DNA of 51,999 nucleotides from assembly GCA_039961735.1 (NCBI GenBank), contig JABRVX010000042.1, positions 1-51,999 on the forward strand, given 5' to 3'. The position numbers and the translations under genes are program-made. Shown here piece after piece: positions 3,483-40,608 of this stretch. The DNA is from Fimbriimonadia bacterium. GTDB lineage: Bacteria; Armatimonadota; Fimbriimonadia; Fimbriimonadales; JABRVX01. Within the stretch, counting starts at the first letter, position 1; each line of letters opens with the position of its first letter. The notes below the pieces were generated by a model. That model did no database searches and was not told the DNA's origin. It saw nothing but the letters and a program-made list of their open reading frames with translations.

Positions 3483-3489
3483 TGGTGGC

Positions 3490-6076: not shown

Positions 6077-6079
6077 TTT

Positions 6080-7813: not shown

Positions 7814-8448
7814 TCCGCACCTCCGTTCCGGGGCACGCTCAGTACGCCTCGGTCGAGCCTCGCCTCAAAGAACAACGGCGTAAACGGCGGCTTCCCGCTT
7901 CCGTAGTCGAGGTCTAAGAGCATCCACCCGAGGTCCTCCGTGTGATCGATAGGTTTGGTGTCATCGGCCGGGCCGAACTCGGCTGCGAACTCGCGACAGC
8001 CGAGGGCAGGACGGTGAAAGCACTGGCCGCGTTGCACACGCCGCCGAAACTGGTCGCGGAACTTAGCCACGTCATCTGCGACACCTGGGTTGACGACGGG
8101 CTCGGCGTAGATCCGGTACGCCACGTCGCGAAGAACGACCGAGTGCCGCTGCGCGCGATTCTCGACGAGATCCGCATAGAAGCTCTTACCCTCGCCGAGA
8201 GCCGCTTTGGAGTTGACTTCATTCCGGAGAATGGAGACGTAGCGAATCGGTTTCAGCACATGGATCTCGAGCACCCTCCAGGTGAACTGAGGGTGCCAGA
8301 ACACCGCCTCGAGGACCCCTCGTGCGGCAGATGGCGTCATGACCGGGTAGGTAACGCGCTCCACCTTGAATTCGGGCCGAGTGAAGCACGCGAAGTCGGA
8401 TGAGACCTGAACTGATAGGCAGTGGTTGAGCACCTTTCCTCCTTCCAT
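7810..8448 (-). CDS. cas5c: Type I-C Cas5 (Cas5c/Cas5d), pre-crRNA processing nuclease
   Basis: This 212-residue RAMP protein has the Cas5d N-terminus (VSSDFACFTRPEFKVERVTYPVMTPSAARGVLEAVFW) and the later QRHSVVLRDVAYRIYAEP block. In type I-C, Cas5 replaces Cas6 and cuts the repeat hairpin, using Tyr, Lys and His residues in related enzymes. It then stays bound to the 5' handle. Start choice is uncertain. ATG at 8448 abuts the cas3 stop but lacks a ribosome binding site, while a GTG at 8433 follows a GGAGG. The gene overlaps cas8c by 4 nt. Confidence 0.93.
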   Translation of the reverse strand: MEGGKVLNHCLSVQVSSDFACFTRPEFKVERVTYPVMTPSAARGVLEAVFWHPQFTWRVLEIHVLKPIRYVSILRNEVNSKAALGEGKSFYADLVENRAQRHSVVLRDVAYRIYAEPVVNPGVADDVAKFRDQFRRRVQRGQCFHRPALGCREFAAEFGPADDTKPIDHTEDLGWMLLDLDYGSGKPPFTPLFFEARLDRGVLSVPRNGGAE

Positions 8449-25518: not shown

Positions 25519-26652
25519 TTAGTGCCCCGGCGGAGGTGTCTCCAGCAGTCCCTTCAGCGTCATTAGGCCGATCATCAGGATGATCAGCATGCCCGCCACG
25601 ATCACCCACTGCCTTCGTGCCGGGTGACGCGACTCCGAGCGGTCCAGCCAAGGCAGGAAGAACATGCCGATCGTAACCAGACCAGGGACTACCACGGTTG
25701 CAACCACTTCCCAACCCGGTGGCATGATCTTCAGAAGCTCATACAGCCCGAGGAAGTACCATTCGGGTCTGGGTGAGAAATCGGTCCCGGTCGGATCTGC
25801 GATAGCTTCCAGGCCAGGTGGGAGTGCTAGCGCAAGCGCGATGACCGCCCCGACGCCGAACAGCAGAACGACTGCGTCCTTGAATAGCTGCGTGGGGTAG
25901 AACGCCACGGGCTTGCCCTTCTGCGGCATGACGGGCCCTGCGATGTGATGTCGCCGCACCAGGTATAGGTGGAGCGCTACCAGGAACACCAACGCCGCGG
26001 GTAGCAGCATGATGTGGATCGCGTAGAAACGTGTCAGCGTCAATGCACCGACTTCCGGACCACCGCGAATGAGATGTAGGAGCGAATCGCCGATGAACGG
26101 GACAGTGGCCGCAATCCTCGTCCCCACGACCGTGGCCCAGTACGCCTTCTGGTCCCACGGCAGCAGATAGCCAGTGAACGAGAATGCCAGGATCACGTTG
26201 AAGATGATCACTCCTACTACCCACGTGAGCTCGCGTGGCTTCTTATAAGATCCCCAGAAGAAGACGCGAAGCGTGTGAAGCACGGTGACGATAACGATGG
26301 CCGTCGAGCCCCACACGTGCAGACCCCGCACGAACGACCCGAAGGATACGTTCTCGGTCAGATGCTTTACGCTCTGGTGCGCATGGTCGGGGCTGGGCGA
26401 GTAGAACATCGCGAGTGCCACACCCGTGACGAACTGGAAGACGAGCAGTGTTAGTAGCAAGTTGCCCAGCGTCTGCCACCACCCGACTCCGGGTGGCATG
26501 GGCTCGTCCAGGTTCTTGCGCACGAACCCCCACCAACCCAAGCGCAAGTCGAGCCAGTCCTTTAGGCCCGGTCGCGCTACGCGGAGCTCGGCTTCCGGTG
26601 TTAGGTCTTCGGTACGCGTTTCGACCGGTCGTTCCGGTGTCAGGGTCTTCAT
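25519..26652 (-). CDS. Cytochrome b (b6/subunit IV fusion) of a quinol-oxidising bc-type complex
   Basis: This is a 377-residue membrane protein. Heme-b ligands are seen as two pairs, His112/His126 and His213/His228. The 13- and 14-residue spacings match cytochrome b6. The Qo-site motif PEWY occurs in FSPRPEWYFLGLYELL. Both the b6 part (about residues 1-235) and a subunit IV-like part are in one chain. With the Rieske protein directly upstream it should oxidise quinol. It is the last gene of the operon that begins with the molybdenum oxidoreductase, suggesting that the complex feeds or replaces the membrane anchor of that reductase. Confidence 0.9.
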   Translation of the reverse strand: MKTLTPERPVETRTEDLTPEAELRVARPGLKDWLDLRLGWWGFVRKNLDEPMPPGVGWWQTLGNLLLTLLVFQFVTGVALAMFYSPSPDHAHQSVKHLTENVSFGSFVRGLHVWGSTAIVIVTVLHTLRVFFWGSYKKPRELTWVVGVIIFNVILAFSFTGYLLPWDQKAYWATVVGTRIAATVPFIGDSLLHLIRGGPEVGALTLTRFYAIHIMLLPAALVFLVALHLYLVRRHHIAGPVMPQKGKPVAFYPTQLFKDAVVLLFGVGAVIALALALPPGLEAIADPTGTDFSPRPEWYFLGLYELLKIMPPGWEVVATVVVPGLVTIGMFFLPWLDRSESRHPARRQWVIVAGMLIILMIGLMTLKGLLETPPPGH

Positions 26653-26653
26653 G

Positions 26654-27163
26654 CTACGCCTCCCTATACACCCATATCCGCCCGTCCTCCACCTTCACGG
26701 GGGCACGCTCGAGCGGCCTAGGGGGCGGACCGGATACGACCTTGCCCGCCTCGTCGAACACCCCGCCATGACACGGGCAGAGGAACCTATTCTTCTCTGG
26801 CTGATAGCGAACGCGGCAGCCGAGGTGTGTGCAGGCCGGGTCGAGTGCAATCACCCCGTCGGCATCCCGACGCAGGTAGAGTGTGTACTTCCGGTCGGCT
26901 ACCATGAACCCATCCTCGACACGAACGCTGAACGTGACTTCCTTCATCTCGCCCGACGGCACCTCGGCGGCGTTGGCGATGGGAATCCACTTTCCACTCC
27001 GTCGCTGGCGTAGGGGAGATGCCACGAAGCCTAGGACCGGCCCGAAGACGGCGAGCAGCAACGCTCCGTTGATGAGGCCCACGGCCCAACCCAGCAGTTT
27101 GCGCCGCTCGGGCTGCTCCACCTGTTGGGCTTCTCCGTTCCTGCTATGATCGGCTGCGCACAT
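26654..27163 (-). CDS. Rieske [2Fe-2S] protein
   Basis: This is a 169-residue protein. The N-terminus has RRKLLGWAVGLINGALLLAVFGPV, a membrane anchor preceded by twin arginines. The Rieske cluster motifs are CTHLGC and CPCHGG, and the flanking GVIALDPACTH and KVVSGPPPRPLE are typical of bc-complex Rieske proteins. It should transfer electrons from quinol at cytochrome b to a c-type cytochrome outside the membrane. It lies 1 bp from the cytochrome b gene. Reductase operons of haloarchaea (nar) are known to pair Rieske and cytochrome b genes with NarGH, and this arrangement is similar. Confidence 0.94.
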   Translation of the reverse strand: MCAADHSRNGEAQQVEQPERRKLLGWAVGLINGALLLAVFGPVLGFVASPLRQRRSGKWIPIANAAEVPSGEMKEVTFSVRVEDGFMVADRKYTLYLRRDADGVIALDPACTHLGCRVRYQPEKNRFLCPCHGGVFDEAGKVVSGPPPRPLERAPVKVEDGRIWVYREA

Positions 27164-27181
27164 GGTTATGTCCTCTCAGTA

Positions 27182-28315
27182 TCATGGGTAGTAGCGGAGC
27201 CGTACCTTGGCTTTGGTGCCCGGCTCCAGCGTTCTCATCACGCCCTCGGCGATCCGAAGCGACTTGTGGTGCCTGCCGGGAGAGGGTTCGCGAAGGAAAT
27301 CCAGATCACCGGACGCTGCCACGTTCTCGGTTAGGCGTGTGGAGGCGATCATCAGCGGCACGATCCAGGCATGCATGAACCGCGTGTAGGGAGCGGTCAA
27401 CACCAGCAGGGATACCGAAGCTAGGTGATATAGATAGACCGTCATCACCCAATCGGCTATCCCGGCTCTCTTGATGATGACTGTCAGGAAGCCGCTCAGA
27501 ACCGTGTGGAAGAGAAGGTTGACGAACAGGAAGTCGCGACCTTGCGTCAACCCGTTGTCAATGAACTCATCGGAACGGTAGCGGTACTGCACATAGAACA
27601 TGCCTAGCATCACCGCGAGCCCGGACACGATGGGGAGAAGCTTCAGGGGGTTATAGAGCGGCAGAGTGCCACGCGCCGGGTTGAAGATCGCCATCAGAAT
27701 GTCGGCTGCCAGCAGACCGAGGAAGCCGTAGAAGATCAGACCGTGCATCACCCACCGGAAGCGGTTCCTCCGATATAGTGACGCTACGCATAGCCCGTCC
27801 ACGACAAGTGAGCGCAACACGATCCAAGCAGAACGTGCGACCCCTAACCGTCTGATGCCAGGCCACAGATAACCGACAGACGCCAGCTTAAGCCAGTAGA
27901 GCGTGACGGGGATGGAAAGCAGGAAGGCGACGCCGAACACCACGAAGAAGATGATGCCCACATTGCGTGTGCTGAGGAACTGACCAACCTTGTACGCGAT
28001 AGGGATCAGCTCCGGGCGCCACGGCTTGTTGCGCAGTTCATCATAAATCGCTCGAACCTCGGCGTCGGACGCCTGCACGGCAGTGGTCGCAGGCATCATG
28101 CCCTTGCCTTCGCGCACAGTCTTGTGGAACTGTTCGAATGTCAGTTTCGTCTTGGCGATCGGGGGGCCCAGTCCACCCATTGCCGACTGACCATGACAAC
28201 CCATGCAGTTCGACGTGGAGTAATGGTCGTTGTCCGTGGCCTTCGGTAGCTGAGACCAGGCCTGCGTCGCAAGCAGAACGGCTAAGATCGCAACGCTACA
28301 CGCTAACGGTCTCAT
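27182..28315 (-). CDS. Fusion of a mono-heme cytochrome c domain with a NarI-like membrane domain
   Basis: The start at 28315 (MRPLACSVAILAVLLATQAWS) gives a signal peptide and a 377-residue protein. Its first 20 nt overlap the upstream gene, and GAGAGAGG precedes it. A CMGCH heme-c motif lies at residues 37-41, in a cytochrome c domain with the methionine-bearing GKGMMPAT segment as likely sixth-ligand region. From about residue 105 there are five or six membrane helices carrying conserved histidines (WVMHGLIFYGFLGLL, LLFHTVLSGFLTV, YLYHLASVS, RFMHAWIV). These resemble the heme-b subunits NarI, HdrE and DsrM. It may pass electrons between quinol or cytochrome c and the cytoplasmic NarGH-like subunits. 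Electron direction is inferred. Confidence 0.8.
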   Translation of the reverse strand: MRPLACSVAILAVLLATQAWSQLPKATDNDHYSTSNCMGCHGQSAMGGLGPPIAKTKLTFEQFHKTVREGKGMMPATTAVQASDAEVRAIYDELRNKPWRPELIPIAYKVGQFLSTRNVGIIFFVVFGVAFLLSIPVTLYWLKLASVGYLWPGIRRLGVARSAWIVLRSLVVDGLCVASLYRRNRFRWVMHGLIFYGFLGLLAADILMAIFNPARGTLPLYNPLKLLPIVSGLAVMLGMFYVQYRYRSDEFIDNGLTQGRDFLFVNLLFHTVLSGFLTVIIKRAGIADWVMTVYLYHLASVSLLVLTAPYTRFMHAWIVPLMIASTRLTENVAASGDLDFLREPSPGRHHKSLRIAEGVMRTLEPGTKAKVRLRYYP

Positions 28316-29003
28316 GTCCCTCTCTCTCTTCCACAGTGATCGCTCCCTCCAGCCCGAGCATGGATGGCATCTGATCACACATGGTAGCTAGGTAGCAGCC
28401 TGCTGGGTCGGTGCCTGCTTCCGGCAGCAAGTGGAACGGCTCCCTCTTCGTCGCCTCCCTCTGCTCGACGATGTAGCGCGAGACTTCGCTTTCGGGGTCC
28501 TCTAGGTCTCCGAAGATGCGGGCCTTGGTCGGGCAGGACACGACACAGGCGGGTTCCAGGCCAACGTCCACACGGTGCGCGCAGTAGGTGCACTTGCGCG
28601 CCACGTTCTCGTTCAGCCTGGGTCTTACATAGCGAGTCTCGTACGGCTCATCGTCCGGAAGGTACCAGCGGTCTTGTTGAGTCAGGAAGATGTTTCCGTA
28701 CGGACAAGCCGTCACACACGCGCCGGTTCCGCGGCAGCGGTCTTGATCGATCAACACGATGCCATCGGGACGCCGGAAGATCGCCTTGTTCGGACAGCTC
28801 TTAAGGCACGGCGCGTTGTCGCAGTGATTGCACAACACCGGAACGTACACGCGTTTCACGTTCGGGAACTCCCCCGCCTCGATGTTCAGAACGCGCGCGA
28901 AGAACACGTCCACCGGAGTGCCGTTCTCTTGCTTGCACGCCATCGTGCACGTGTCGCAACCGATGCAGCGTGTCAGATCGATGAGCATTGCCATGCGTGC
29001 CAT
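28296..29003 (-). CDS. NarH/DmsB-like electron-transfer subunit with four Fe-S clusters
   Basis: This is a 235-residue ferredoxin-like protein. Four cysteine groups are visible: CIGCDTCTMAC, CNHCDNAPCLKSC, CRGTGACVTAC and CTYCAHRVDVGLEPAC followed by CP. The third group has Thr93 where the second cluster cysteine normally stands. In E. coli NarH the same position is Trp and the cluster is [3Fe-4S], so a [3Fe-4S] cluster is likely here. It would carry electrons from the membrane subunit to the molybdenum subunit. There is no signal peptide, so it is cytoplasmic or a Tat passenger. The start directly follows the catalytic subunit stop (TGAATG). Confidence 0.9.
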   Translation of the reverse strand: MARMAMLIDLTRCIGCDTCTMACKQENGTPVDVFFARVLNIEAGEFPNVKRVYVPVLCNHCDNAPCLKSCPNKAIFRRPDGIVLIDQDRCRGTGACVTACPYGNIFLTQQDRWYLPDDEPYETRYVRPRLNENVARKCTYCAHRVDVGLEPACVVSCPTKARIFGDLEDPESEVSRYIVEQREATKREPFHLLPEAGTDPAGCYLATMCDQMPSMLGLEGAITVEEREGHETVSV

Positions 29004-31442
29004 TCAGTCCACCCTCCGGATGTCTACACGCGTATCCTTCCAGTGTTGCCCGGGTGCGTACACCGCCGGCAGGTAGTAGTTCTCGTGTGTGGGTTTCACT
29101 TTCTGATGGGTGTGCACGCTGTGGTACTTGCCCCCGCCGAGGTAACGGTCCCACCAGCCATGATCCACACACAGCACACCTGGCTTGATGCCTTCTGTGA
29201 GCAACGCCCAGAGCCGATATGACCCGTTGTTGTTGAACAGCTCTACCTGATCGCCATCACGAATACCTTTCTTTGCGGCGTCTCGTGGGTTGATCTCGAC
29301 TACGGCACCACGATTCAGGTTGAGCAGAGCGGTGTTGTTGCTGTGCGTCGAGTGCACGCGCCACTTGGAGTGAGGCGTGACGATAGCGAATGGCAGGCGC
29401 TGATCTTCCTCGGGCAGATGTTCGAAGGACGGGCGGTAGATGGGTACCGTCTCACCCAGCTTCTGGAAGACGTCTTCCTCCTTATAGAACTCCATGCGGC
29501 CGGTCTTCAGGAACTCGCGTTGCGCCCCCTCCGGGAATGGATAGGCTCGCGGTGGGAAAGGCTTGTACTCGTTAATCTGCTCGTCGAGACCACACTCCGG
29601 ATCCGGCACTCTTAGCCTAACCGGCCCCTCACGGAGTTGCTCGAGCGTGATACCCTCGCACTCCTTGCCACCCGTGGCCAGCAGGATGCGAATCGCCTCA
29701 CTCTCGTCGGGCTCCATCATCGGCAGCAGGCTGGCGTCCACGCGCCGTATCAGCTCTCGCGCGATCCACAGCTCGGTGCGGCTCTGGTGCCTAGGTGGTA
29801 TCACCTCTTGCTGAATCTGAAGGTACGGGTGGCAGCTCGTACCCACCAGATCCATCTTCTCCCAGAACGTCGGTGCCGGCAGCACGACATCCGAGTACTC
29901 GCACGTAGGTGACATAGAGAAGTCGATAGTGACAAACAGGTCCAGGTTGTCAATCGCACGCTTCATCGGTTCCGAGAACTCCGTAACCAGAGGATTTCCG
30001 TGCGATACGAACAGCGCCTTGAACCCGTGCTGGGGAAACTTGATCTTCGGGTTGATCGTTCCCGTAGGCTTCCCTAACACGAAGTAGTGCATCGGCACCA
30101 TGTTGGGCCGCTTGCCCCCAGGGAACCAGTAGCCGCTGACGTCTATGCGGAAGTGATGCTGGCCGGAGTAGATGGACACCGACTCGCCGGGCTTGCCGTG
30201 TGCACCTACCAAGGCGGAGAGCAGCAACACCGAGCGGATGGTCAGGTCCCCATGAAGGCGGTGGTTGATGCCCATCCCGATGATGATGGAGCTGGGTCTT
30301 CGGGTGGCATACTCGCGCGCGACCTGGCGGATCGTGTCGGCAGGTATGTCCGTGATACGTGCCACGTTCTCCGGGGTGTATTCGTCTCGCATGATCACGT
30401 CTTCGAGCAGCTGGTACACCGGAGTGACACGCACCTTCTGGCCTTGCACCTCGACCTCACGAGTGCCGGCCAGGGAGAGGCGCACACCTTCGGGAAGCCG
30501 CAGTGTTTCCGAAGGCAGCTTGAACAGCGAGTCGGTAGCTTCATCCCAAGCCATGAACTCCATGTCCGACCCCATCCCGACGTCGGAGGCTCGTAGGCGA
30601 CGTCCGTTATCCTCGCGGATAAGTGTGGGGCAATCGGTGAATGTGCGCAGAAAGTCGCGGTCCACGAGGTTCTCTTGCATCAGCACTTGACACATGGAAA
30701 GCGCGAGGGCGCCGTCGGTGCCGGGGTTGATGGGTAGCCACAGATCGGCGCCCTTCGCGGTTTGACTGCACCGAGGGTCAATGCAGACTATCTTGCAGTC
30801 GTTGAGCTGCTTAGCATATTGGGTCAAGAACTTCGCGTCTGGAATGCGGGTCTGGAAAACGTTGCTGGACCAGAGGATTGCGTACTTCGCGTGTGCCCAG
30901 CTCTTGGTCTCGCACTCCACACAATCGATCCCCACCGTGTGAGTGAACCCCATCGAGATGTCGCCATTGAAATCGTACGCGGTGGCGAAGGACATGCCGA
31001 GAAGCGCGGCCATGCGAATCTGCGCGCCCTTCTGCACGTAGCTGGTGCCGACGACCTGGTTGAAGAGCAGCATGCTCTCAGGGCCGTAGTTGTCCCGGAT
31101 GCGGATCATCCGTTCGGCGATGTAGTCGAGCGCCTCGTCCCAGGTTGCGGTCTTCCACTTACCCTCGCCACGCTCACCGGTTCGGATAAGCGGAGTGCGA
31201 ATGCGATCGGGGCCGTAGATTAGGTGGGTCATCGCCTGACCACGCAGGCAGCCTCGAGGATTGTAGTCGGCGCAGGGGTAGTCGGCCGCAGGCTTCAGGT
31301 CGACGATATCATCGTTCACCACCGTGGCGAGCCAGCCGCACGCGCCCGTACAGTTTGGGCTATCTGTCGTGCGAACTAGTCGCTCCTCCCCAACCGGAGC
31401 TTCTTGCTTGGCTCGGCCGGGTACCCGATACCGCGTTGCCAT
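29004..31442 (-). CDS. Type II DMSO-reductase-family molybdenum oxidoreductase, NarG-like catalytic subunit
   Basis: This 812-residue enzyme is much shorter than classical NarG (about 1240). The [4Fe-4S] region reads SPNCTGACGW, with the last cysteine in PRGCLRG. NarG has His four residues before the first Cys; here it is Asp27. Asp161 in FNGDISMGFTHTVG matches the aspartate that ligates Mo in NarG and other type II enzymes. The following blocks (AILWSSNVFQTRIPDAKFLT, WLPINPGTDGALALSMCQVL) fit that group. No twin-arginine signal is seen, suggesting a cytoplasmic location. Adjacent narK genes favour nitrate, but chlorate, selenate or another oxyanion cannot be excluded. No narJ-like chaperone gene was recognised. 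Confidence 0.85.
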   Translation of the reverse strand: MATRYRVPGRAKQEAPVGEERLVRTTDSPNCTGACGWLATVVNDDIVDLKPAADYPCADYNPRGCLRGQAMTHLIYGPDRIRTPLIRTGERGEGKWKTATWDEALDYIAERMIRIRDNYGPESMLLFNQVVGTSYVQKGAQIRMAALLGMSFATAYDFNGDISMGFTHTVGIDCVECETKSWAHAKYAILWSSNVFQTRIPDAKFLTQYAKQLNDCKIVCIDPRCSQTAKGADLWLPINPGTDGALALSMCQVLMQENLVDRDFLRTFTDCPTLIREDNGRRLRASDVGMGSDMEFMAWDEATDSLFKLPSETLRLPEGVRLSLAGTREVEVQGQKVRVTPVYQLLEDVIMRDEYTPENVARITDIPADTIRQVAREYATRRPSSIIIGMGINHRLHGDLTIRSVLLLSALVGAHGKPGESVSIYSGQHHFRIDVSGYWFPGGKRPNMVPMHYFVLGKPTGTINPKIKFPQHGFKALFVSHGNPLVTEFSEPMKRAIDNLDLFVTIDFSMSPTCEYSDVVLPAPTFWEKMDLVGTSCHPYLQIQQEVIPPRHQSRTELWIARELIRRVDASLLPMMEPDESEAIRILLATGGKECEGITLEQLREGPVRLRVPDPECGLDEQINEYKPFPPRAYPFPEGAQREFLKTGRMEFYKEEDVFQKLGETVPIYRPSFEHLPEEDQRLPFAIVTPHSKWRVHSTHSNNTALLNLNRGAVVEINPRDAAKKGIRDGDQVELFNNNGSYRLWALLTEGIKPGVLCVDHGWWDRYLGGGKYHSVHTHQKVKPTHENYYLPAVYAPGQHWKDTRVDIRRVD

Positions 31443-31514
31443 CTCCGCACCTCACAGCTTGCGCGCAAAGATTGCGCCTACGCTGCGATTCTCATGCGGC
31501 GGGCGATCGGCCCG

Positions 31515-31532
31515 CTATGACCGCCGTCATAG
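31515..31532. promoter_or_regulatory. Operator TATGAC-N4-GTCATA upstream of the reductase operon
   Basis: A perfect 7-bp inverted repeat, CTATGAC-CGCC-GTCATAG, is centred 81 bp before the start codon of the NarG-like gene. The same core occurs before both narK genes and, with two mismatches, before moaA. Its geometry (4-bp spacer) is that of Crp/Fnr family sites, and a Crp/Fnr regulator is encoded nearby. Confidence 0.8.
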
Positions 31533-31559
31533 GGGGGGCAAGGTGTTCGAAGAAAGCGG

Positions 31560-31886
31560 CTATGCCTCGCCGGCTCGGGCAGCGAGTACCTCGTCTACCC
31601 AGCTCAGGCCAGCCATCATGTTAGGGAAACCGACGGTAGTAGTGGCCTGAAGCGCGGCATGCCGGACCTCCTCGGGTGTGGCGCCGGCGTCCAGGGCTCT
31701 CCGCGTGTGGCTTCGGACCGCACTCTCCATCCGCGCACCCACCGAGACGCCGATTTTTACTAGCTCGCGCGTCTTGGCATCCAACGGCCCCGAGTTTGCG
31801 ACCGCCTCGCCTAGTGCGGTGTACGCTGCGCCCACCTCGGGGTAGTTCTTCAGGAACTCCGTGTATCGCTTGGGCAACTTCTCCAT
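31560..31886 (-). CDS. AhpD-like / carboxymuconolactone decarboxylase family protein
   Basis: This 108-residue protein starts MEKLPKRYTEFLKNYPEVGAAYTALG and continues LDAKTRELVKIGVSVGARMESAVRSHTRRALDAGATPEEVRHAAL, the family pattern. The CxxC pair of AhpD peroxidase reductants is absent: SHTRRA stands where CHTRRA usually does, so a thiol redox role is doubtful. It lies upstream of the reductase operon on the same strand but before its operator, so it probably has its own promoter. Confidence 0.88.
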   Translation of the reverse strand: MEKLPKRYTEFLKNYPEVGAAYTALGEAVANSGPLDAKTRELVKIGVSVGARMESAVRSHTRRALDAGATPEEVRHAALQATTTVGFPNMMAGLSWVDEVLAARAGEA

Positions 31887-31961
31887 ACACTCAGGATACT
31901 CCCCTCGGCATACATCCGCGCAACGTAGGAAGGAAGTGCCGCCCCGCCGAACTTTGGACGC

Positions 31962-32549
31962 GTGTACCTGGAAGCCGCCTTGCTCACCGGTGGAGCGAGC
32001 CGACGCATGGGGCGCGACAAGGCGACGCTCGAAATCGCCGGGCTCCCGCTGGCCGAAACCATCGCGTCGCGAATCCTGGCCGTCGGCGTACCCCTGACAG
32101 TGCTCGGTCCAGAGGCCATCCCTGGCTGCACTCTGCAGCAGGATGCGACCCCGCATGAAGGTCCGCTGGTTGCCCTGAGCAGATTCCGCCCTCGTGCGGA
32201 GTTCGTGTTCGTCTGTTCGTGCGATCTGCCGCTCTTGGATGCTCGAATCATCGAGGTCCTATCGGACCTCATCGAGGAGAGGGACGCCGCCATCCCGCTG
32301 AGCCAGGGTCGGCTTCAGCCGCTCTGCGCGCTCTACCGGGCCCAAGCGCTCGCTGGCTTGCCAGAGTGGCTGCGGCAGGGAAGCCGACGTGTGATGGAGT
32401 GGATCGAATGCCTCCACTACATCAGAGTGCCCGAGGAGGTTCTGGAGTCGCGAGGATTGTCGCGCTATTGCGTGCGCAGCGCGAACACTCCGGAAGAGCT
32501 AGAGCTTCTCCTCAGCCCAAAAGCAGCTCGTCTAGAGCCTGAGGCTTGA
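31962..32549 (+). CDS. mobA: Molybdenum cofactor guanylyltransferase MobA
   Basis: This 195-residue protein starts at GTG 31962. The nucleotide-binding signature LLTGGASRRMGRDKA is at residues 8-22, followed by HEGPLVAL and FVFVCSCDLPLL (metal-binding Asp). MobA attaches GMP to molybdopterin to make the bis-MGD cofactor needed by DMSO-reductase-family enzymes, which fits the adjacent reductase. It is divergent from the AhpD-like gene. Its last 38 nt overlap the convergent crp/fnr gene. Confidence 0.93.
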   Translation: MYLEAALLTGGASRRMGRDKATLEIAGLPLAETIASRILAVGVPLTVLGPEAIPGCTLQQDATPHEGPLVALSRFRPRAEFVFVCSCDLPLLDARIIEVLSDLIEERDAAIPLSQGRLQPLCALYRAQALAGLPEWLRQGSRRVMEWIECLHYIRVPEEVLESRGLSRYCVRSANTPEELELLLSPKAARLEPEA

Positions 32550-33249
32550 GAATCGTGATGACTTGGTGGTCGGTGGAGACTACACCCTCCTTCTGCCAAC
32601 GGCTCATCACTCGAATAGCGGTCTCCACCGTGGTGCCTGCCATCTCCGCCAGGTCGGCCCGGGTGAGAGGGACGGTCAGCCGCGTGCCCTCGGGGATCTT
32701 CTCGCCGTAGGAAAGCATCAAGATGATCAGCACTGCGGCGATGCGGTGCTCGACCTTGCAGGTGGACATTCGGGCCATCATGTCGTGTGCCTTGCGTAGC
32801 CGCGGGGCCAGTGAACGCAGCACCTGATCGCGCAAGCCGGCGCTTTCGCGATACACCTCCAACAAGGCAGGCACCGGGACCTTGAGGTACCAGACGTCGG
32901 TCACCGCGACCGCACTGAGAGGATACACCCTGCCCTCGATGGCACTGAGAAGCCCTGCGGCTTGCCCGGGTCCGAGCAGTTCCACGGCCACCTCGCTGCC
33001 CTGCGGCGTGGTCCGCGTCATCTTGATGAAGCCCGTGCCGACCACTGCGGCGAAGTGGGACGATGCACCTGCTACCCAGATGAACTCCCCTCGCTCCGCA
33101 TACGCCACGTACGAGGCATCAGCCAGCGTGCGTCGTTCTTCTGGCATGAGGGCGTTGAACAGCGAGCAGGCCTCGATGACCGCTAGATTGCTCGGGCGGT
33201 CCGGCACTTGCTCGACTTCATGTCGTCCGGTCTGTTGACTCGCTCCCAT
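32512..33249 (-). CDS. Crp/Fnr-family transcriptional regulator
   Basis: Starting at ATG 33249, preceded by GGGGGG, the protein has 245 residues. A longer form from ATG 33321 overlaps the narK stop as ATGA but lacks a ribosome binding site. Residues 20-145 form the cyclic-nucleotide-like sensory beta-roll (GSEVAVELLGPGQAAGLLSAIEG), followed by a dimer helix and a winged helix (PLTRADLAEMAGTTVETAIRVMSRWQKEGVV). The FNR Fe-S cysteines are absent, so it is not an FNR oxygen sensor. A DNR-like NO or heme sensor is possible. The recognition helix has Glu-Thr-Ala-Ile-Arg where FNR has Glu-Thr-Ile-Ser-Arg. It probably controls the TATGAC-N4-GTCATA sites, including its own operon. Confidence 0.9.
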   Translation of the reverse strand: MGASQQTGRHEVEQVPDRPSNLAVIEACSLFNALMPEERRTLADASYVAYAERGEFIWVAGASSHFAAVVGTGFIKMTRTTPQGSEVAVELLGPGQAAGLLSAIEGRVYPLSAVAVTDVWYLKVPVPALLEVYRESAGLRDQVLRSLAPRLRKAHDMMARMSTCKVEHRIAAVLIILMLSYGEKIPEGTRLTVPLTRADLAEMAGTTVETAIRVMSRWQKEGVVSTDHQVITILKPQALDELLLG

Positions 33250-33317
33250 CTGTCTTGCCCCCCAGGCGAGCTGGACCCGCCCGCTGCACTTCTCTTCATT
33301 GTGGATCGCACGTCGGC

Positions 33318-34643
33318 TCATTCGGCTGCGGCGGGAGCGGGGCTCGGCTGAGCGTCCATCACATGGATGCCCAGGTTCGCCTCCGCACGCTTCAGCGACC
33401 TCACGACCGCGTGCAGCCAGATTAGGCTCACTGCCGTAACCGCGAAGATTACCCAGAACATGGACTGCGGAGAGCCGCCCCACCGCGCTAAGTACGCGAA
33501 CAGCGGCGGCATGATGAACCCACCGAGGGCCGCGAGCGCTCCCACTAACCCGACCACCGCACCTACGTCCTTCGGGTAGTACTCGGGGATGTACTTGATC
33601 GTGGACGCCTTGCCGATTCCCTGGGCGATGCCGATGACCAAGACCATAGCGGCGAACGGATAGAGCCCGAGGGGAAGAAACAGCACCGCCGATGCCAGAA
33701 GACAAGACGTGAACACTACGTAGGTAACGCTGCGCGGCCCGAAGCGGTCGGAGAGATAGCCACCGAACGGGCGTAGTAGGCTGGACGCCAATATGAACGG
33801 CGTCGTGAGCAGCGCCGCAGTCGAGAGAGGCAGCCCGTACACGTCCACATAGTACTTGGGCAGCCAAACGGACATCGCGACGTAGGCGCCGAACACCACC
33901 GTGTAGTACAGGCTGAAGCGCCAGACACGCACCTCACGCAAGGGCCGCAGCATGTCGCCGAGAGGGCGATTCGCCGAAGGGCGCCTATCCGGGCGCGGGC
34001 TCAACCACCACATGAGGGCGACCATGATGGCGATAAGCACGCTGTACAGGAATGGGATAAAGCGCCACCCCCCGGGAATGAGCCCGCCGAGCAGCGGCAT
34101 CGGAACGAGCGCCATCAGCCCTGGACCGATGAACTTGGTGATAGACGCGCCGACGTTGCCCGCGCCGAAGAGGCCCATCGCGAACCCTTGCTTCTCCTTC
34201 GGGAACCATGCGGCGCACCACGCCGACCCGACGGCGAAGCTGTTGCCTGCAACGCCGACGAGAAACGCACCGAGCATCAGCTCGGTGTAAGAGGCAGCCC
34301 TGCCAACCACGAAGGAGGCAATCCCGGCGAACAGGAACGTACCGAGGAACACATTTCTACCCCCGAGGCGGTCGGAGAGGATGCCGAGTGCGAGCCGCCA
34401 CACGGCACCATTCAGGATCGCCACCGCTGAGAGCCACGCCAGTTGCTCGTCGGACAAGCCCAGCTCTTGCCGGATGGGTACACCCAACACACCGAACATC
34501 GTCCAAGCGCCGAAGAGGAGGGTGAAACCCGAGAAGGATAGCCACAGCACACGGTTCCGCCGAGCGATCGCTTCGGGGGACTCCGGCACGGGTGGCGCTC
34601 CAGCGGGGGCTAGGCGGTCACGGGATAGATTCGACTCAGGCAT
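33318..34643 (-). CDS. NarK-type nitrate/nitrite porter 1 (MFS, NNP family)
   Basis: This is a 441-residue 12-helix transporter. The nitrate signature region is GVAGNSFAVGSAWCAAWFPKEKQGFAMGLFGAGNVGASITKF, and the second half has LGGFIMPPLFAYL. NNP members import nitrate or exchange it for nitrite. It is followed directly by the Crp/Fnr regulator, so both are probably one transcript from the operator at 34678. It differs clearly from porter 2, recalling the NarK1/NarK2 pairs of denitrifiers. Confidence 0.9.
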   Translation of the reverse strand: MPESNLSRDRLAPAGAPPVPESPEAIARRNRVLWLSFSGFTLLFGAWTMFGVLGVPIRQELGLSDEQLAWLSAVAILNGAVWRLALGILSDRLGGRNVFLGTFLFAGIASFVVGRAASYTELMLGAFLVGVAGNSFAVGSAWCAAWFPKEKQGFAMGLFGAGNVGASITKFIGPGLMALVPMPLLGGLIPGGWRFIPFLYSVLIAIMVALMWWLSPRPDRRPSANRPLGDMLRPLREVRVWRFSLYYTVVFGAYVAMSVWLPKYYVDVYGLPLSTAALLTTPFILASSLLRPFGGYLSDRFGPRSVTYVVFTSCLLASAVLFLPLGLYPFAAMVLVIGIAQGIGKASTIKYIPEYYPKDVGAVVGLVGALAALGGFIMPPLFAYLARWGGSPQSMFWVIFAVTAVSLIWLHAVVRSLKRAEANLGIHVMDAQPSPAPAAAE

Positions 34644-34677
34644 GTGCCCATTCTCCGCCCGAACAGAGGCCCAGACC

Positions 34678-34693
34678 TATGACGGCTGTCATA
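34678..34693. promoter_or_regulatory. Operator TATGAC-N4-GTCATA upstream of narK1-crp
   Basis: TATGAC-GGCT-GTCATA is centred about 42 bp before the narK1 start, between the two porter genes. The bases after it (TCA) are shared with the site at 36102. Confidence 0.8.
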
Positions 34694-34709
34694 TCAGACC
34701 TGCGGTCTT

Positions 34710-36053
34710 CTAGCAGGGCTTCTCGGCGCCGCGCCGAGTGTAGAACCAGTAGTTCAGGAGCAGATTTGCGGCATAGAAGACCGCAGCACCGAGGAAGAAC
34801 GCCTGCGCGGAGCCCGTGCGCGCGATGATCCAGCCGAATAGCACGGAGAACACGAACGGCCCGTATGCGGCCACCGCTGAAGTCCATCCGATGACACCGC
34901 CCGCTTGCCTAGGCGGAAAGATCATCGGCATCTGTTTGAACGTGGACGCGTTGCCCGCCCCGCTGAAGAAGAACAACCCCAGCATGAGCCAAAGGAACTT
35001 TGGCCAGTTCTCCAGCGACGTCGGAGCGGTGTAAGGGCTGATGGCCAGAGCGCAGACGAGCAGCCCGATCCCGCTGAACATCGTGACTCGCGCTCCACCC
35101 AGCCGGTCGCTGATTGGCCCGAACAGCACGCGCACCAGAGCCCCGACCAAGGGACCGAGGAACGCATATTTCAGCGGATCCGGCCCCCCCGGAAAGCCAC
35201 CGTACAGGTTCTTGATCAGCAACGGAAACGACGCCGCATACCCACTGAACGAACCGAAGGTCATGATGTACAGCGACGTCATGAACCACGTGTGCTTGTC
35301 GCGAAAGATGTCTAGCTGCTCACGGAAGCTAGCCTTAACCGGCACCCGTCGCAGGCCGAACCATGCCGCGACCGTGCACACGGCGATGAATGGGACCCAC
35401 ACGAACGCTGCGTTCTGGAGCCAAATCTGGGAGGTTTGCCCTTTCGCCGAAAAGGTCTGAGGGGCACCCACCAGCGCTACTCCGATAACAGCCGGGATAA
35501 TGAACTGAGCCAAGCTCACCCCGAAGTTCCCTATGCCGGCCTGGATGCCGAGCGCTGTGCCTTGGAGCCTCTTAGGGAAGAACAACGAGGTGCTGGGCAT
35601 GAACGAGCTGAAGTTGCCGCCACCCAACCCTGCTAGGATGCCCAACAGCAAGAAAGTCCCGTAGCTGGTGTCGGGGTTCATCACGGCGAGACCCCAGCCG
35701 ATCGCAGGGAGCAAGAGCAGGAGCGTAGACACCGTGATCGTGTTGCGGGTCCCGAAGATGGGGATGAGGAACGTGTGCACGATCCGCAGAGTCCCGCCCG
35801 CGAGCCCGGGCATCGCGTTCAGCCAGAAGAGCTGCTGCGTGTCGAAGCGATAGCCTATTCCGGTCAGCTTCACCACGATGGCGCTGACCATGAACCACGT
35901 GGAGAACGAAAAGATCAGCCCGGCGGTCGTGATCCACAGCGTGCGCCAAGCGAGGCGTTTCCCTCCGGTCTCCCAGCAGGCAGGATCTTCCGGGTTCCAC
36001 TGGTCTGGGCTGGTAGCCGTCTGTGGCTCTTCTGCTACAGATTGTTGCGGCAT
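34710..36053 (-). CDS. NarK-type nitrate/nitrite porter 2 (MFS, NNP family)
   Basis: Starting at ATG 36053 after AAGGAG, this is a 447-residue 12-helix transporter. Upstream in-frame sequence is rejected as unlikely coding. The nitrate signature is textbook: GLGGGNFSSFMPSTSLFFPKRLQGTALGIQAGIGNFG. The second signature, GAGNASTFKQMPMIFPPRQAGGVIGWTSAVAAYGPF, is also present. It should move nitrate inward and/or nitrite outward for the cytoplasmic reductase. It has its own upstream operator and lies 66 bp before narK1. Confidence 0.93.
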   Translation of the reverse strand: MPQQSVAEEPQTATSPDQWNPEDPACWETGGKRLAWRTLWITTAGLIFSFSTWFMVSAIVVKLTGIGYRFDTQQLFWLNAMPGLAGGTLRIVHTFLIPIFGTRNTITVSTLLLLLPAIGWGLAVMNPDTSYGTFLLLGILAGLGGGNFSSFMPSTSLFFPKRLQGTALGIQAGIGNFGVSLAQFIIPAVIGVALVGAPQTFSAKGQTSQIWLQNAAFVWVPFIAVCTVAAWFGLRRVPVKASFREQLDIFRDKHTWFMTSLYIMTFGSFSGYAASFPLLIKNLYGGFPGGPDPLKYAFLGPLVGALVRVLFGPISDRLGGARVTMFSGIGLLVCALAISPYTAPTSLENWPKFLWLMLGLFFFSGAGNASTFKQMPMIFPPRQAGGVIGWTSAVAAYGPFVFSVLFGWIIARTGSAQAFFLGAAVFYAANLLLNYWFYTRRGAEKPC

Positions 36054-36420
36054 GGCGTCTCCTTCGTGGAACCAGCATCGGCGATGGGTCGGGGTGATGG
36101 GTATGACGCACGTCATATCACCACGGAATCGGCCAGGCGACAGCAATAAAGCGCGCCCGCCGAGCCGTCCGACCATGGCGCAAGCTCGCCTCGCTGTCAG
36201 GCGAGGCCAGGTCAGGAAACCCCACACGACGTGCACGAACGAGATTGGTGGACGACCTCGAAGGGTGGCTGCCAGCCTCAGCTGGGCTGACACAAGGCGA
36301 CCACTGCGGTAGTCAAGCACTAGGGTGAGGGGGGAGGGACCACCGCGATAGTCCTGCGCTCGACATCTGCGCAGTCGGCCGGTCAGGGCATCTTGTGCAA
36401 CGCCGACGCGATTCGAGAGC
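36054..36420 (-). other. Intergenic region upstream of narK2
   Basis: The 367-bp gap holds the operator at 36102-36117 and the narK2 promoter region. I see no further gene or repeat in it. Confidence 0.6.
36102..36117. promoter_or_regulatory. Operator TATGAC-N4-GTCATA upstream of narK2
   Basis: TATGAC-GCAC-GTCATA is centred about 56 bp before the narK2 start codon. It is a perfect 6-bp-arm palindrome with the same core as the other sites. Confidence 0.8.
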
Positions 36421-37779
36421 CTACTGTCTATCTCTCCAATAGTCCAACAGCTCGGCCAGCCTTCCGCCCGGTTCCCACATCTCCTGCGCCTCGTTCCCTG
36501 CGAACTGGGCCGGCGGTGCGTGTTCCGGGTCGTTACATAGCTTTGCCAGCATCCTCATCGCCGTGTGATAGATTTCGTGGCGGCAGTTCCGTAGGTAGGT
36601 CATGTCGGTGCCAGTGTCGTACTCTTCTCGTAGAGCGCGTTTGATGTCGGGAATGGACTTCGCAGTGGCCCACCCGGCCAGTCCCGCGACAGCGTAGCAC
36701 GTCCAGCCGGGATCGGGCAGGCCAGCGTCTAGGAGACGCAACCACAGGTTCTCTCGCTCTTCGGGGGCGAGCAACCAAATCGCGGTGCTCACGCCCGTCG
36801 TACAGCCTGGGGCGCCCTTGCGCGCCCGAGCCACCAGACGGGAGAGATATTCCTCTGCCAACTCACGACTCGGGCTGTACTGTAGCAGTACCGACAAGCC
36901 ATGCAGGGCATGGTATTCGTCGGTCGTATTGTCCACCCACGCGCGGAGCGCAGGCGCGACCCGGCCCCGACAGTAGGTGTCGTAGTCGGGCCACAGCGCC
37001 GTTGCGCGAAGTGCGGCGAGCTCCGTTTTCGGGACGTTGGCGCTAAGCCCCCCGAACTCACCGGGGCTCCCGAAGCCAAGCAGGGCCGCGAACGCGCTCG
37101 CCCTGTCAGGGTCTTTCGCATCACTGAGGCCCTTGAGGAGACATTCCAGCAATGCGCGCAGAGGGGGCCCCTGCTCCGTGACCGGCCAGCCCCCATCGGG
37201 CCTATGCACGATGTGGTAGCTACCGATCTCCGTGTTCAGCATCCCCCACACCCCGGGGCGGGGCCGCACTACATGGCACTCGCCAAAGTGCCCTTCAGGG
37301 CTGAATTCGGTGTACTCCTCTCGGGTCTCGAGACGCCCGCTATCATCCGGGGCTATCAGGTACACCAGGATGGCCTGTCCGGCCTCCACGGTTGCTGGGA
37401 ATGGGCGCGGGTACTGGGTGGGCACTAAGTCTGTGGCATAGCTGAGCACCTTGATCTCGGACAACTGCGGACCCTTGATCACTCGCTCCACTTCGCAGCG
37501 GATCTCCCGGAATGCGTCCTTGCCGAGTGGGATCTCGCCGTCCTTGTTCGGGGGAATGGGTTGGCCATCCGGAGCAAGGATGCTGGTCAAGTTGGCGTGA
37601 GGCTCCACCACGTCCAGCCAGATGGTCTCGGAGGCTTCGACGGGACGCACAAACCCCACAAAATCGCACCGATGCACCCAGGTAGCGAGGTGACGAGCTA
37701 CGCGCTCCTTCTTGGGAGGTCCGGCCTCCTGGGCCGAACAGAGCGCGAGAAGGGCAGCGACGGCTACAATCGTTGTCAT
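36421..37779 (-). CDS. Secreted hypothetical protein, 452 residues
   Basis: A short signal peptide (MTTIVAVAALLALCSAQ) is visible. The first half is beta-rich, with a segment (REIRCEVERVIKGP followed by IKVLSYATDL) resembling exported proteins of unknown function that report costs or effects of ligand binding. The second half is helical and could form HEAT-like repeats (LHGLSVLLQYSPSRELAEEYLSRLV, WTCYAVAGLAGWATAKSIPDIKRAL). I recognise no catalytic motif. It lies 12 bp downstream of the next hypothetical gene on the same strand, so the two are probably one transcript. Confidence 0.75.
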   Translation of the reverse strand: MTTIVAVAALLALCSAQEAGPPKKERVARHLATWVHRCDFVGFVRPVEASETIWLDVVEPHANLTSILAPDGQPIPPNKDGEIPLGKDAFREIRCEVERVIKGPQLSEIKVLSYATDLVPTQYPRPFPATVEAGQAILVYLIAPDDSGRLETREEYTEFSPEGHFGECHVVRPRPGVWGMLNTEIGSYHIVHRPDGGWPVTEQGPPLRALLECLLKGLSDAKDPDRASAFAALLGFGSPGEFGGLSANVPKTELAALRATALWPDYDTYCRGRVAPALRAWVDNTTDEYHALHGLSVLLQYSPSRELAEEYLSRLVARARKGAPGCTTGVSTAIWLLAPEERENLWLRLLDAGLPDPGWTCYAVAGLAGWATAKSIPDIKRALREEYDTGTDMTYLRNCRHEIYHTAMRMLAKLCNDPEHAPPAQFAGNEAQEMWEPGGRLAELLDYWRDRQ

Positions 37780-37791
37780 CGGTAACCTCCG

Positions 37792-39195
37792 TTATGGTAC
37801 GGACACGAATGCGTTTAGGGTCCCGTTGGTCCAGATGGTGATTCGGTAGGTGCCCACCTGGCACCCGCCCAAGCTGGGGAAGATGTTGACGGTTCCGCTG
37901 TGAAAGGTGTGGATCAGCTCTTTCGGCGGAACGGAGAGAGGCCGCACGAAAGGCCCAAAGGCCGCCTCACCGGGATGGTCGTACGCTGCGGGGCTACGCA
38001 CCCCGAGGATGTCCCTGAAGCAGGGCTTGTACTCGGGATCACCTCGGGGAGGTAGTCCAGGGATCACGTCGTTCCCGGTGATCCAGCTCATGCCTCTTGG
38101 GCGTGGCCAGTTCCCATTCCAGTGAAACTCCGCCGGCGTTCCGTCCGGAAACTGCGTCGGCACGCCGTTCGGAAAGCGCTCCTGCGCGCTTATGCCGTCC
38201 ATTGGCAAGTCGTGGTTATCTACGATGTAGAAGGCCCATCCCTCCTCGTAGATCCACTCCGGCGGACCAACGACGTTCTGCAACACCCACTGGTCCCTGG
38301 CAAGCGCAATCTCTGTGGGACGGTGACCCGTGAAGCTGCGGTAGTCCGGACTGGCTTCGTCGTGGTTGTTCGCCCTAGGCACAACATCGGTGTCGTCGCC
38401 CCACTCGAACGGCCACTCGAAGCCCGGCACTTGCAGCCGGTACGTCAGGTAGACCTTGATGGCACCTTGCGCGCTCGCCCCATTGGCCGCTACGAGGATC
38501 TGCGATACTCCCGATGGCTGGCCGCTCACCACCCCCGCCGTCAGGATGACGCCCGGCGCGAGCACCGTCCAGACGAATTGGGTGCCGGGAGGCTGCTCGC
38601 CCGCGCGATCCGCCGTGATCGTCGCCTTGTTGACGGTCTGGGCTCCCGCTGGCTTGGCTACGGCTGATGGACTGTAATCGAAGTACGTAAGATACCAAGG
38701 AGGGCGGTCGCCCAGTTCGTCATCCCAGACATGCCTGCACTCGCCCCCTTTGATTACTTCCACACTAAGCGGGCCGCCGAGGACATAGAACGTCTTCTGC
38801 CCGCGCCACACGTTGCCGCAGCCTTGAATTGGCGGGTCGTGCTGAGTGTCGGTGATCTCGACGCTTACGACGCAGACCCCTGCACTCGTGAATCGCACCG
38901 TGGGGTTCCAGTCCTGGCTCTCGGCAGGTTCGGCGCCGCAGCCCACGAAGGTCCAATGGATGGCTACAGGCATACACTCTACGATCACGGGCGGCTCCGC
39001 TTGCGCCGAGAAGGATGCCTCTGCCTCCTCGCGGGGCGGCTGGCGCTCAGCGTTCCACCACAGCCCGGTGTAATCGCCAACTGAGCACAGGATCGTAACC
39101 TCGTACTCCTCTGCCAACACGTACGGGCACGCCCCTACGGCAAGCGTAGCCGCGGCGAGGCACACTAACAACTCACGAACCTGGATCGGCTTCAT
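37792..39195 (-). CDS. Secreted hypothetical protein, 467 residues, Cys- and Trp-rich
   Basis: The N-terminus MKPIQVRELLVCLAAATLAVGACPYVLAEE is a signal peptide. The mature protein is beta-rich with Ig-like segments (VRFTSAGVCVVSVEITD and NKATITADRAGEQPPGTQFVWTVL). Several tryptophans and paired cysteines fit an extracytoplasmic protein. No family was recognised. It is the first gene of a likely two-gene transcript. Confidence 0.75.
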   Translation of the reverse strand: MKPIQVRELLVCLAAATLAVGACPYVLAEEYEVTILCSVGDYTGLWWNAERQPPREEAEASFSAQAEPPVIVECMPVAIHWTFVGCGAEPAESQDWNPTVRFTSAGVCVVSVEITDTQHDPPIQGCGNVWRGQKTFYVLGGPLSVEVIKGGECRHVWDDELGDRPPWYLTYFDYSPSAVAKPAGAQTVNKATITADRAGEQPPGTQFVWTVLAPGVILTAGVVSGQPSGVSQILVAANGASAQGAIKVYLTYRLQVPGFEWPFEWGDDTDVVPRANNHDEASPDYRSFTGHRPTEIALARDQWVLQNVVGPPEWIYEEGWAFYIVDNHDLPMDGISAQERFPNGVPTQFPDGTPAEFHWNGNWPRPRGMSWITGNDVIPGLPPRGDPEYKPCFRDILGVRSPAAYDHPGEAAFGPFVRPLSVPPKELIHTFHSGTVNIFPSLGGCQVGTYRITIWTNGTLNAFVSVP

Positions 39196-39615
39196 AGCCT
39201 GTTACCATCCGCTGATCTTATTATGGACTAGGATATGATATCACAATACCGGCGATTCTGCAAGGCCCCTATGCCAATCTGGCTTACTCGGCAGCGAGGA
39301 CTTCGCGGGTACCGCATCGAAGACGCCAGGCGGGAAGCTACGATCTCTGCCTCTGGCGTTGTTGAAAGAGCCTAGACGTCCTGGCCCGCGTCCGCAGCAC
39401 TGCACCCAGAGAACGAACGCTGGGAACCAAAGGACGGCGCCGGGGCGTGACACGGACGCGACAAGTCGGTGCACTTCGCGGCATTTTCGTCAGGCCCCTC
39501 TGCTAGGCTGAGGCGGAGCTGGGTGCTATGATCGAGGTCATGTCTGACGGCGATGCGATTGGGGAAGACTGGATCCATGTCTGGCGGCGAGGGACAACCA
39601 TCTGGGGAGACTAAC
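39196..39615 (+). other. Divergent intergenic region before moaA
   Basis: The 420-bp gap lies between two divergent genes and holds a variant operator (39527-39542). I looked for a molybdenum-cofactor riboswitch, which precedes moaA in some bacteria, but could not identify one with confidence. No other gene is supported. Confidence 0.5.
39527..39542. promoter_or_regulatory. Variant operator upstream of moaA
   Basis: TATGAT-CGAG-GTCATG matches TATGAC-N4-GTCATA with one mismatch in each arm. It is centred 81 bp before the proposed GTG start of moaA, the same distance as the site before the reductase operon. This would couple cofactor synthesis to reductase expression. Confidence 0.55.
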
Positions 39616-40608
39616 GTGGCGCTGCGGTCGCCGCTGTTCGACCGCTTCGGGCGCGTGCACTCGTATCTGCGAATCTCCGTAACGGACCGATGCAACTTTC
39701 GCTGCGTGTACTGCATGCCGGCGGAGGGCATCGAGTGGCGCCCGCGCGAGGATATCCTGACATTCGAGGAGATCGTTCGGGTCACGCGCGTTTTCGTTCG
39801 GCTCGGCGTGGATAAGGTGCGCCTCACCGGCGGCGAGCCGACGCTGCGCCGAGGCATAGAGCACCTCATTTCGGCACTAGCAGCGTTGCCCGGCGTGCGC
39901 ACCCTCGCGATGACCACCAACGGATTCCGGTTGCGGGAGCATGCTCACACCTATCGGGAGGCGGGCCTGACGGGGATCAACGTCAGTCTGGACTCGCTTC
40001 GACGCGAGCGCTTTCTGCAGATCACGCGACGCGACGCGCTGGATAACGTTCTCGCCGGCCTGGATGCAGCGCTGGCAGCGGGCTATGAGAAGGTGAAGCT
40101 GAACACCGTGGTGATGGCCGGCGTGAACGAAGACGAACTGCTCGACTTCGTGGAGCTGGCGCGCGACCGGCCGCTGCACGTGCGTTTCATCGAGTTCATG
40201 CCTTTTCATAACAATGGGTGGTCGGAGGGCGGCGTGTTCCCGCTGGCCCGCATGCGCGAGATCATTGGGAGCCGATACTCGCCGGAGCCCATGCACGTAG
40301 AGCCGAACGCTGTCGCTCGCGAGTGGCGCATCCCAGGGTTCCAGGGCACCATCGGCTTCATCGCTTCGATGACGGAGAGCTTCTGCTCGGGATGCAACCG
40401 GATACGACTTACCGCAGACGGCCAGGTGAAGTCGTGCCTCTTCTCGCCCGCAGAGAGCAACCTGCGAGACGTGCTGCGGTCGGGTGCGAGCGACGACGAG
40501 CTGGAGGAGCGCATCCGAACAGCGCTGTGGCTGAAGCCAAAGGAGCACCCACCGATGGAGGTGCTGTCCGCCCTGGAAAACCGTAGCATGATCGAGATCG
40601 GGGGCTAG
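39616..40608 (+). CDS. moaA: GTP 3',8-cyclase MoaA
   Basis: The radical-SAM enzyme has about 330 residues from GTG 39616, preferred because GGGGAGA precedes it and homologues begin near here. An ATG at 39553 would add 21 residues. The sequence YLRISVTDRCNFRCVYCMP carries the SAM cluster cysteines. The C-terminal cluster is FCSGCNRIRLTADGQVKSCL, and the chain ends in Gly-Gly. It makes the first Moco intermediate from GTP. MoaC, needed for the next step, is not encoded nearby. The first of four tightly spaced moa/moe genes. Confidence 0.96.
   Translation: MALRSPLFDRFGRVHSYLRISVTDRCNFRCVYCMPAEGIEWRPREDILTFEEIVRVTRVFVRLGVDKVRLTGGEPTLRRGIEHLISALAALPGVRTLAMTTNGFRLREHAHTYREAGLTGINVSLDSLRRERFLQITRRDALDNVLAGLDAALAAGYEKVKLNTVVMAGVNEDELLDFVELARDRPLHVRFIEFMPFHNNGWSEGGVFPLARMREIIGSRYSPEPMHVEPNAVAREWRIPGFQGTIGFIASMTESFCSGCNRIRLTADGQVKSCLFSPAESNLRDVLRSGASDDELEERIRTALWLKPKEHPPMEVLSALENRSMIEIGG

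Follow-up and report, generated by a model that had tools for sequence, protein, structure and literature searches.

Contig JABRVX010000042.1 of a Fimbriimonadia bacterium (order Fimbriimonadales), whose 51,999 nucleotides form the window analyzed here, carries the palindrome TATGAC-N4-GTCATA in front of a reductase operon, of two narK-type transporter genes and, in altered form, of moaA, with the gene of a Crp/Fnr-family protein (32512-33249, minus strand, 245 amino acids) among them. The questions raised by this locus are whether the repeated palindrome is an operator, which protein reads it, by which residues, and what the promoters look like that it serves. A sequence-only reading had proposed a respiratory regulon governed by the adjacent Crp/Fnr protein; the co-occurrence of site and regulator and the target genes agree with it, whereas its wording on binding was too firm, as binding is deduced. 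It is very probable, judged from comparative sequence analysis, that this protein locally activates a regulon for nitrate and nitrite respiration via TATGA(C/T)-N4-(G/A)TCATA.

A clustered and conserved palindrome

The window spans a complete contig; the genome to which it belongs (3.24 Mb, 98.9% complete) was scored by pattern searches with the reversed pattern as control. Exact matches, listed without strand like the variant, were found as predicted at 31516-31531 (TATGACCGCCGTCATA, reductase operon), 34678-34693 (TATGACGGCTGTCATA, narK1-regulator, in the gap directly past the narK2 stop codon) and 36102-36117 (TATGACGCACGTCATA, narK2), and the variant of moaA at 39527-39542 (TATGATCGAGGTCATG) shows two mismatches, which fall on the site's two variable positions. 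Only four exact copies are present in the genome, three of them inside 4.6 kb of the window, while the reversed pattern gave none; dinucleotide shuffles of the window yielded a mean of 0.95 matches when up to two mismatches were allowed, and not one of 100 shuffles reached four. The clustering is real and far beyond chance. Distances of 42-81 bp to the start codons, as previously given, hold from the centre of the site but not from its end, where they amount to 34 bp for narK1 and moaA, 48 bp for narK2 and 73 bp for the reductase. Taken by itself, the moaA site lacks significance, given that 26 matches at up to two mismatches in the genome stand against 29 for the control; it is still supported by the orthologues, nine of ten moaA promoters carrying a site, and by its own spacing of exactly 34 bp.

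Outside the window, the fourth exact copy (C30:10721) lies between a split feoB and an ATP-binding cassette transporter gene, and four copies with one mismatch were detected, before nrfHA (C48), a hemerythrin-domain protein (C38) and a pilin-like gene (C9) and in coding DNA (C10). The last of these, C10:25712, was rejected as a site since it sits in a coding region. The expected concentration before nitrate, nitrite, nitric oxide (NO) and molybdenum cofactor (Moco) genes is borne out by the copies preceding the reductase, narK1, narK2 and nrfHA. The feoB of the host (G000:C30, L005:5913-7938) is divided between two open reading frames (ORFs) overlapping by about 20 bp, one for the G domain (185 aa) and one for the membrane part (495 aa).

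Among 113 genomes of the order, 105 exact copies contrast with two of the reversed control. Genes were called with a simple program that had been trained on long ORFs. Of 89 exact sites, 77 then fell into promoters and six into coding DNA, which makes up 86% of the sequence, so that the proposed comparison of promoter and coding frequency came out in favour of an operator. Orthologue counts were taken exclusively from loci chosen for the regulator, a site being accepted at up to two mismatches. The site precedes narK1 (14/14), reductase alpha (9/9), moaA (9/10), narK2 (5/6) and nrfH (4/4), which confirms conservation before the same genes in relatives, and furthermore nnrS-like genes (13/15), alginate-export porin genes (15/17), carboxymuconolactone-decarboxylase-like genes (10/14) and mobA (8/15); the regulator gene itself follows a site in eight of 29 cases, in several species. 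For the other genes of these loci the figure is 32 of 341, and at up to one mismatch the listed targets differ from the others (20/341) with p=4e-30. The control pattern stands before none of the listed targets in the regulator-centred loci. Single sites occur before hcp (G172), a truncated globin gene (G033), multihaem cytochrome genes and a gene for a SLAC1-type channel; one before a feoA-like gene in G003, judged by eye, supports the C30 copy of the host as a feoB site.

When all perfect 6-bp palindromes with spacers of 0-12 bp were counted without bias in 41 regulator-centred loci, TATGAC-N4 came first (30 vs 0.02 expected), followed by shifted versions of itself in second and third place and then by TATGAT-N4 (10 vs 0.01 expected). 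The ATGA at positions 2-5 is 98-99% fixed among promoter sites, while position 6 is C in 77% and T in 21%, and position 1 is T in 86% and C in 11%; a position weight matrix of the site, with expectations derived from base composition, was trained on sites picked at up to two mismatches and is informative only as to which changes are tolerated, namely C6 to T and T1 to C.

Which protein reads the site, and with which residues

With membership of the regulator subfamily defined by E<1e-30, the exact site was found in 47 of 60 regulator-carrying genomes and in four of the 53 others (Fisher p=3.5e-15), and the association persists inside the largest family alone (p=2.4e-9). In 178 genomes of the phylum outside the order, the frequency of exact sites is close to that of the control, save in genomes with the same regulator type: regulators with Ile at position 212 (31-43% identical) have an exact site next to their gene in G172 and G226 and a TATGAT form in G229, and G168 and G169, also with Ile-type regulators, carry exact sites. 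No TATGAC site accompanies the Val-type regulators of G173-175, relatives outside the order, nor the alphaproteobacterial plasmid relatives in denitrification clusters, with a helix reading L-H-T-V-S-R. Exact sites in family f20 (G188-190) were considered as an exception and discarded, the one-mismatch counts not exceeding the control and the regulators not being of the Ile type.

An unlinked regulator such as an NsrR-type Rrf2 protein might read the palindrome instead, with the Crp/Fnr protein as a mere neighbour. In Thermus, an Rrf2-type NsrR needs the motif CTTGACCNNGGTCATGG, with GTCAT as one of its halves, according to a gel shift (PMC5748679), and 107 of the order's 113 genomes contain Rrf2 genes, a few of which are beside sites (G003). 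However, these genes are nearly universal whether the motif is there or not, G055 combines site and Crp/Fnr regulator with no Rrf2 match, and the Thermus motif overlaps the footprint of the Crp-family protein DnrT and hence may not belong to Rrf2 alone (PMC5748679). As the site also follows the Crp/Fnr protein, has Crp/Fnr spacing and sits at a class II Crp/Fnr position, this alternative is improbable; the Crp/Fnr protein is the better candidate reader, and an Rrf2 contribution is still conceivable.

Several points weigh against the regulon as outlined. Thirteen of the 60 regulator-carrying genomes lack an exact site, some showing TATGAT forms only, and many genomes hold paralogues of the regulator, which leaves the assignment of sites to paralogues ambiguous. 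G168 and G169 were chosen because they bear sites, and the test outside the order without them gives only p=0.03; similarly, loci with remote sites were picked for holding one, a bias that the regulator-centred counts avoid, though these loci are clustered. Finally, some sites precede genes with no evident link, namely the pilin-like gene on C9 and mutS in four genomes. Three of these four are without the regulator, and the mutS sites were set apart from the regulon.

The exact site beside or overlapping the mutS start was observed in four genomes of genus g13 (G019, G020, G022, G033; L159, L160, L161, L162) and may be an unrelated but conserved palindrome. The C9 site (G000:C9:177792, L006) has one mismatch, a TANNNT at offset 21 and a distance of 37 bp to a type IV pilin-like (DUF1559-type) gene, a possible extra member of the regulon.

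The regulator matches PF00027 and PF13545 above the cut-off, i.e., a sensor fold of the cyclic-nucleotide-binding type and an HTH_Crp domain. Its structure model (predicted local distance difference test, pLDDT, 92) aligns with Crp/Fnr structures along 225 residues (Z 25) and places the recognition helix at 208-220, with E209, I212 and R213; the closest named relatives, in metagenome-assembled genomes of Armatimonadetes and Fimbriimonadia, are 62-67% identical, which assigns the host to Fimbriimonadales or its close vicinity. Of the two clear Crp/Fnr proteins in the genome, the second (C67) has the helix GTTRETTTL, while that of the window regulator reads GTTVETAIR, the Glu-Thr-Ala-Ile-Arg described before, within a family pattern E-[TS]-x-I-R. 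E209, I212, R213, R197 and S216 are invariant in 37 members down to 29% identity, and an alignment of 43 sequences shows V or T at position 208, T or S at 210, A, S, T or C at 211, and I throughout at 212. The counterpart of Ile212 (CRP position 184) is Ser212 in FNR, and the earlier idea that Ser-to-Ile accounts for the half-site has gained strength from the invariance of Ile212 and from the site following Ile-type helices outside the order.

Correlations known for the Crp/Fnr code connect CRP position 180 with base 3 and position 181 with base 6 (PMC1274295). Val180, as in FNR, would predict T where the half-site has A, and this mismatch directs attention to position 212. That residue 212 is a third letter of the code, Ile together with Glu209 and Arg213 specifying A at base 2 of the half-site (TATGAY), and that it defines a phylum-wide nitrogen-oxide regulon of Armatimonadota with a sensor of undescribed kind and largely leaderless class II promoters, is a tentative proposal with a nearly even chance of being correct. 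With regulon and regulator left in place, other residues or indirect DNA shape could set this base instead, a possible though rather doubtful explanation. It draws on the known code, which comprises positions 180 and 181 without 212 (PMC1274295), and on Ile212 never varying in the site-bearing family, so that its effect is inseparable from shared descent. Yet position 180, despite Val as in FNR, goes with A and not T, and varies (V/T/L/P) in the family where Ile212 is constant, and the nearest relatives with Val212 (G173-175) or Ser are without the site.

As to the signal, the FNR-type 4Fe-4S cysteines that had been noted as lacking are indeed not found, the sole Cys28 and Cys164 not being conserved in the 43-sequence alignment, which likewise displays no conserved His in the sensor domain. 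Alignment with GlxR revealed neither the Glu nor the Arg of the cAMP contacts but Leu and Tyr at their positions. Met77, a conceivable counterpart of HcpR Met68, is conserved in 39 of the 43 regulators, and no residue of the protein could be assigned to the HcpR haem ligand. Low oxygen or a nitrogen oxide is the probable signal; an FNR-type iron-sulphur cluster would not be its sensor, nor would cAMP be involved.

Promoter geometry and predicted leaderless transcripts

Geometry was studied in 155 promoter sites, each oriented to its nearest gene. ATG and GTG codons peak 33 and 34 bp past the site (28 and 34 cases vs about 4.4). For TANNNT the maximum is at offset 21 (15/155 vs about 1 expected), a peak that stays in place where the gene starts further off (15/142). 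A -10 element 21-22 bp past the operator combined with the start-codon peak at 33-34 bp centres the operator at -41.5 before the predicted transcription start, which is the position of a class II Crp/Fnr activator, and in a large share of these promoters the predicted transcription start coincides with the start codon, as expected for leaderless mRNA. In the window, the predicted -10 elements, both GAGAAT on the minus strand at operator offset 22-27, are located at 31488-31493 (reductase; by position class and direct reading of the sequence) and 34650-34655 (narK1), and narK1 transcription is predicted to start at the ATG at 34643, i.e., leaderless. Independently of the sites, TANNNT is enriched at -12/-13 before the start codons of site-free genes (28 cases at both positions vs about 7), and leaderless transcription seems to be general in the order.

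Crp/Fnr proteins are also able to repress, and repression by this regulator would lie within the general capability of the family. Against a chiefly repressing role speaks the -10 element, whose distance to the operator is constant and gives -41.5 whether or not the promoter is leaderless, a phasing that a repressor does not need; repression as the main function is thus very unlikely, and the regulator most likely activates these promoters. We infer that a dimer would bind TATGA(C/T)-N4-(G/A)TCATA with its centre 41.5 bp before the transcription start, Ile212 in place of the Ser212 of FNR setting the ATGA(C/T) half-site jointly with Glu209 and Arg213, and would recruit RNA polymerase to the -10 element as class II Crp/Fnr activators do, many transcripts of the regulon beginning at the start codon itself. 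The host regulon would comprise the reductase operon, narK1-regulator (implying autoregulation), narK2 and moaA, and elsewhere nrfHA, feoB and the gene of a hemerythrin-like protein.

Genes of the locus, known relatives and meaning

The reductase operon, all on the minus strand, encodes the alpha subunit of a type II molybdopterin reductase (NarG/perchlorate-reductase-like, 29004-31442), a 4Fe-4S electron-transfer subunit (28296-29003), a cytochrome c plus membrane subunit (QmoC/TcuB-like, 27182-28315), a Rieske protein (26654-27163) and cytochrome b (25519-26652); an obvious Tat signal was not seen by eye in 25519-31442. While its place in the regulon stood up, with sites before all nine orthologues, taking nitrate as its substrate had been too firm, as this type II molybdenum enzyme is nearest in sequence to perchlorate reductase and only then to NarG; nitrate is suggested by narK and nrfHA. 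Both transporters on the minus strand remain under the curated cut-off of TIGR00886 (312 bits), narK1 (NarK-type nitrate/nitrite transporter, 33318-34643) with 219 bits and narK2 (NarK/NarU-type, 34710-36053) with 300 bits. For narK2, the start of the long ORF at 36320 was replaced by the ATG at 36053, which has a Shine-Dalgarno sequence. The moaA gene (39577-40608, plus strand) starts with the ATG at 39577, 34 bp past its operator. At the far end of the window (1-10605), an array of clustered regularly interspaced short palindromic repeats (CRISPR) and a cas operon of type I-C-like composition (Cas4-, Cas7-, Cas8c-, Cas5- and Cas3-like ORFs) were recognized by eye; the array is also readable as an open frame of 328 aa (1837-2823).

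Compared with FNR of the E. coli type, the regulator shares fold, E209 and R213, 4-bp spacer, class II position and anaerobic respiration targets, but FNR has the box TTGAT-N4-ATCAA, Ser212 in an E-x-x-S-R helix and iron-sulphur cysteines, where the regulator has TATGA(C/T), Ile212 and no such cysteines. DNR and NnrR also control nitrogen-oxide respiration and nnrS genes, with the different motifs CTTGAT-N4-ATCAAG and ctTTGcg-N4-cgCAAag (PMC1274295), and DnrT of Thermus likewise does without FNR cysteines (PMC5748679). HcpR1 and HcpR2 are Crp/Fnr proteins with nitrosative targets, and the Ile-type regulator in G172 shares a site with hcp; their motifs, however, are TTGAC-N4-GTCAA, TGTGA-N6-TCACA or GTAAC-N4-GTTAC (PMC1274295, PMC12750200), and the regulon described here is, unlike theirs, centred on nitrate/nitrite respiration and Moco. 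Published operators of DNR, NnrR and HcpR, compared by the motifs in PMC1274295, do not match the TATGA(C/T) site. The Thermus nic motif, compared by description, is identical in the half-site GTCAT, precedes nitrite and NO reductase operons and overlaps the DnrT footprint, but its other half is TTGAC and the gel shift used the Rrf2 protein (PMC5748679). The closest solved folds are MtbCRP and GlxR (Z 25, root mean square deviation 3.1-3.4 over 225 residues, 22% identity), in which the pocket GELSIFDPGPRTSSA contains Glu and Arg, whereas the regulator has GLLSAIEGRVYPLSA and the cAMP contacts are missing there. No earlier report of the TATGAC half-site was found for any Crp/Fnr member in literature whose coverage was incomplete, so that a prior mention is possible. 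Crp/Fnr regulons for nitrogen oxides are already known; what sets this one apart is its operator, its recognition helix and its predicted layout of leaderless class II promoters.

For Fimbriimonadales, known almost only from metagenomes, this is the first regulon reconstruction for anaerobic respiration known to us, and the site can be used in annotating their nitrate, nitrite and NO genes. Part of transcription in the order would be leaderless, as the DNA sequence by itself suggests. If the role of Ile212 proves true, the protein-DNA code of the Crp/Fnr family, so far correlated at two positions (PMC1274295), would gain a testable third.

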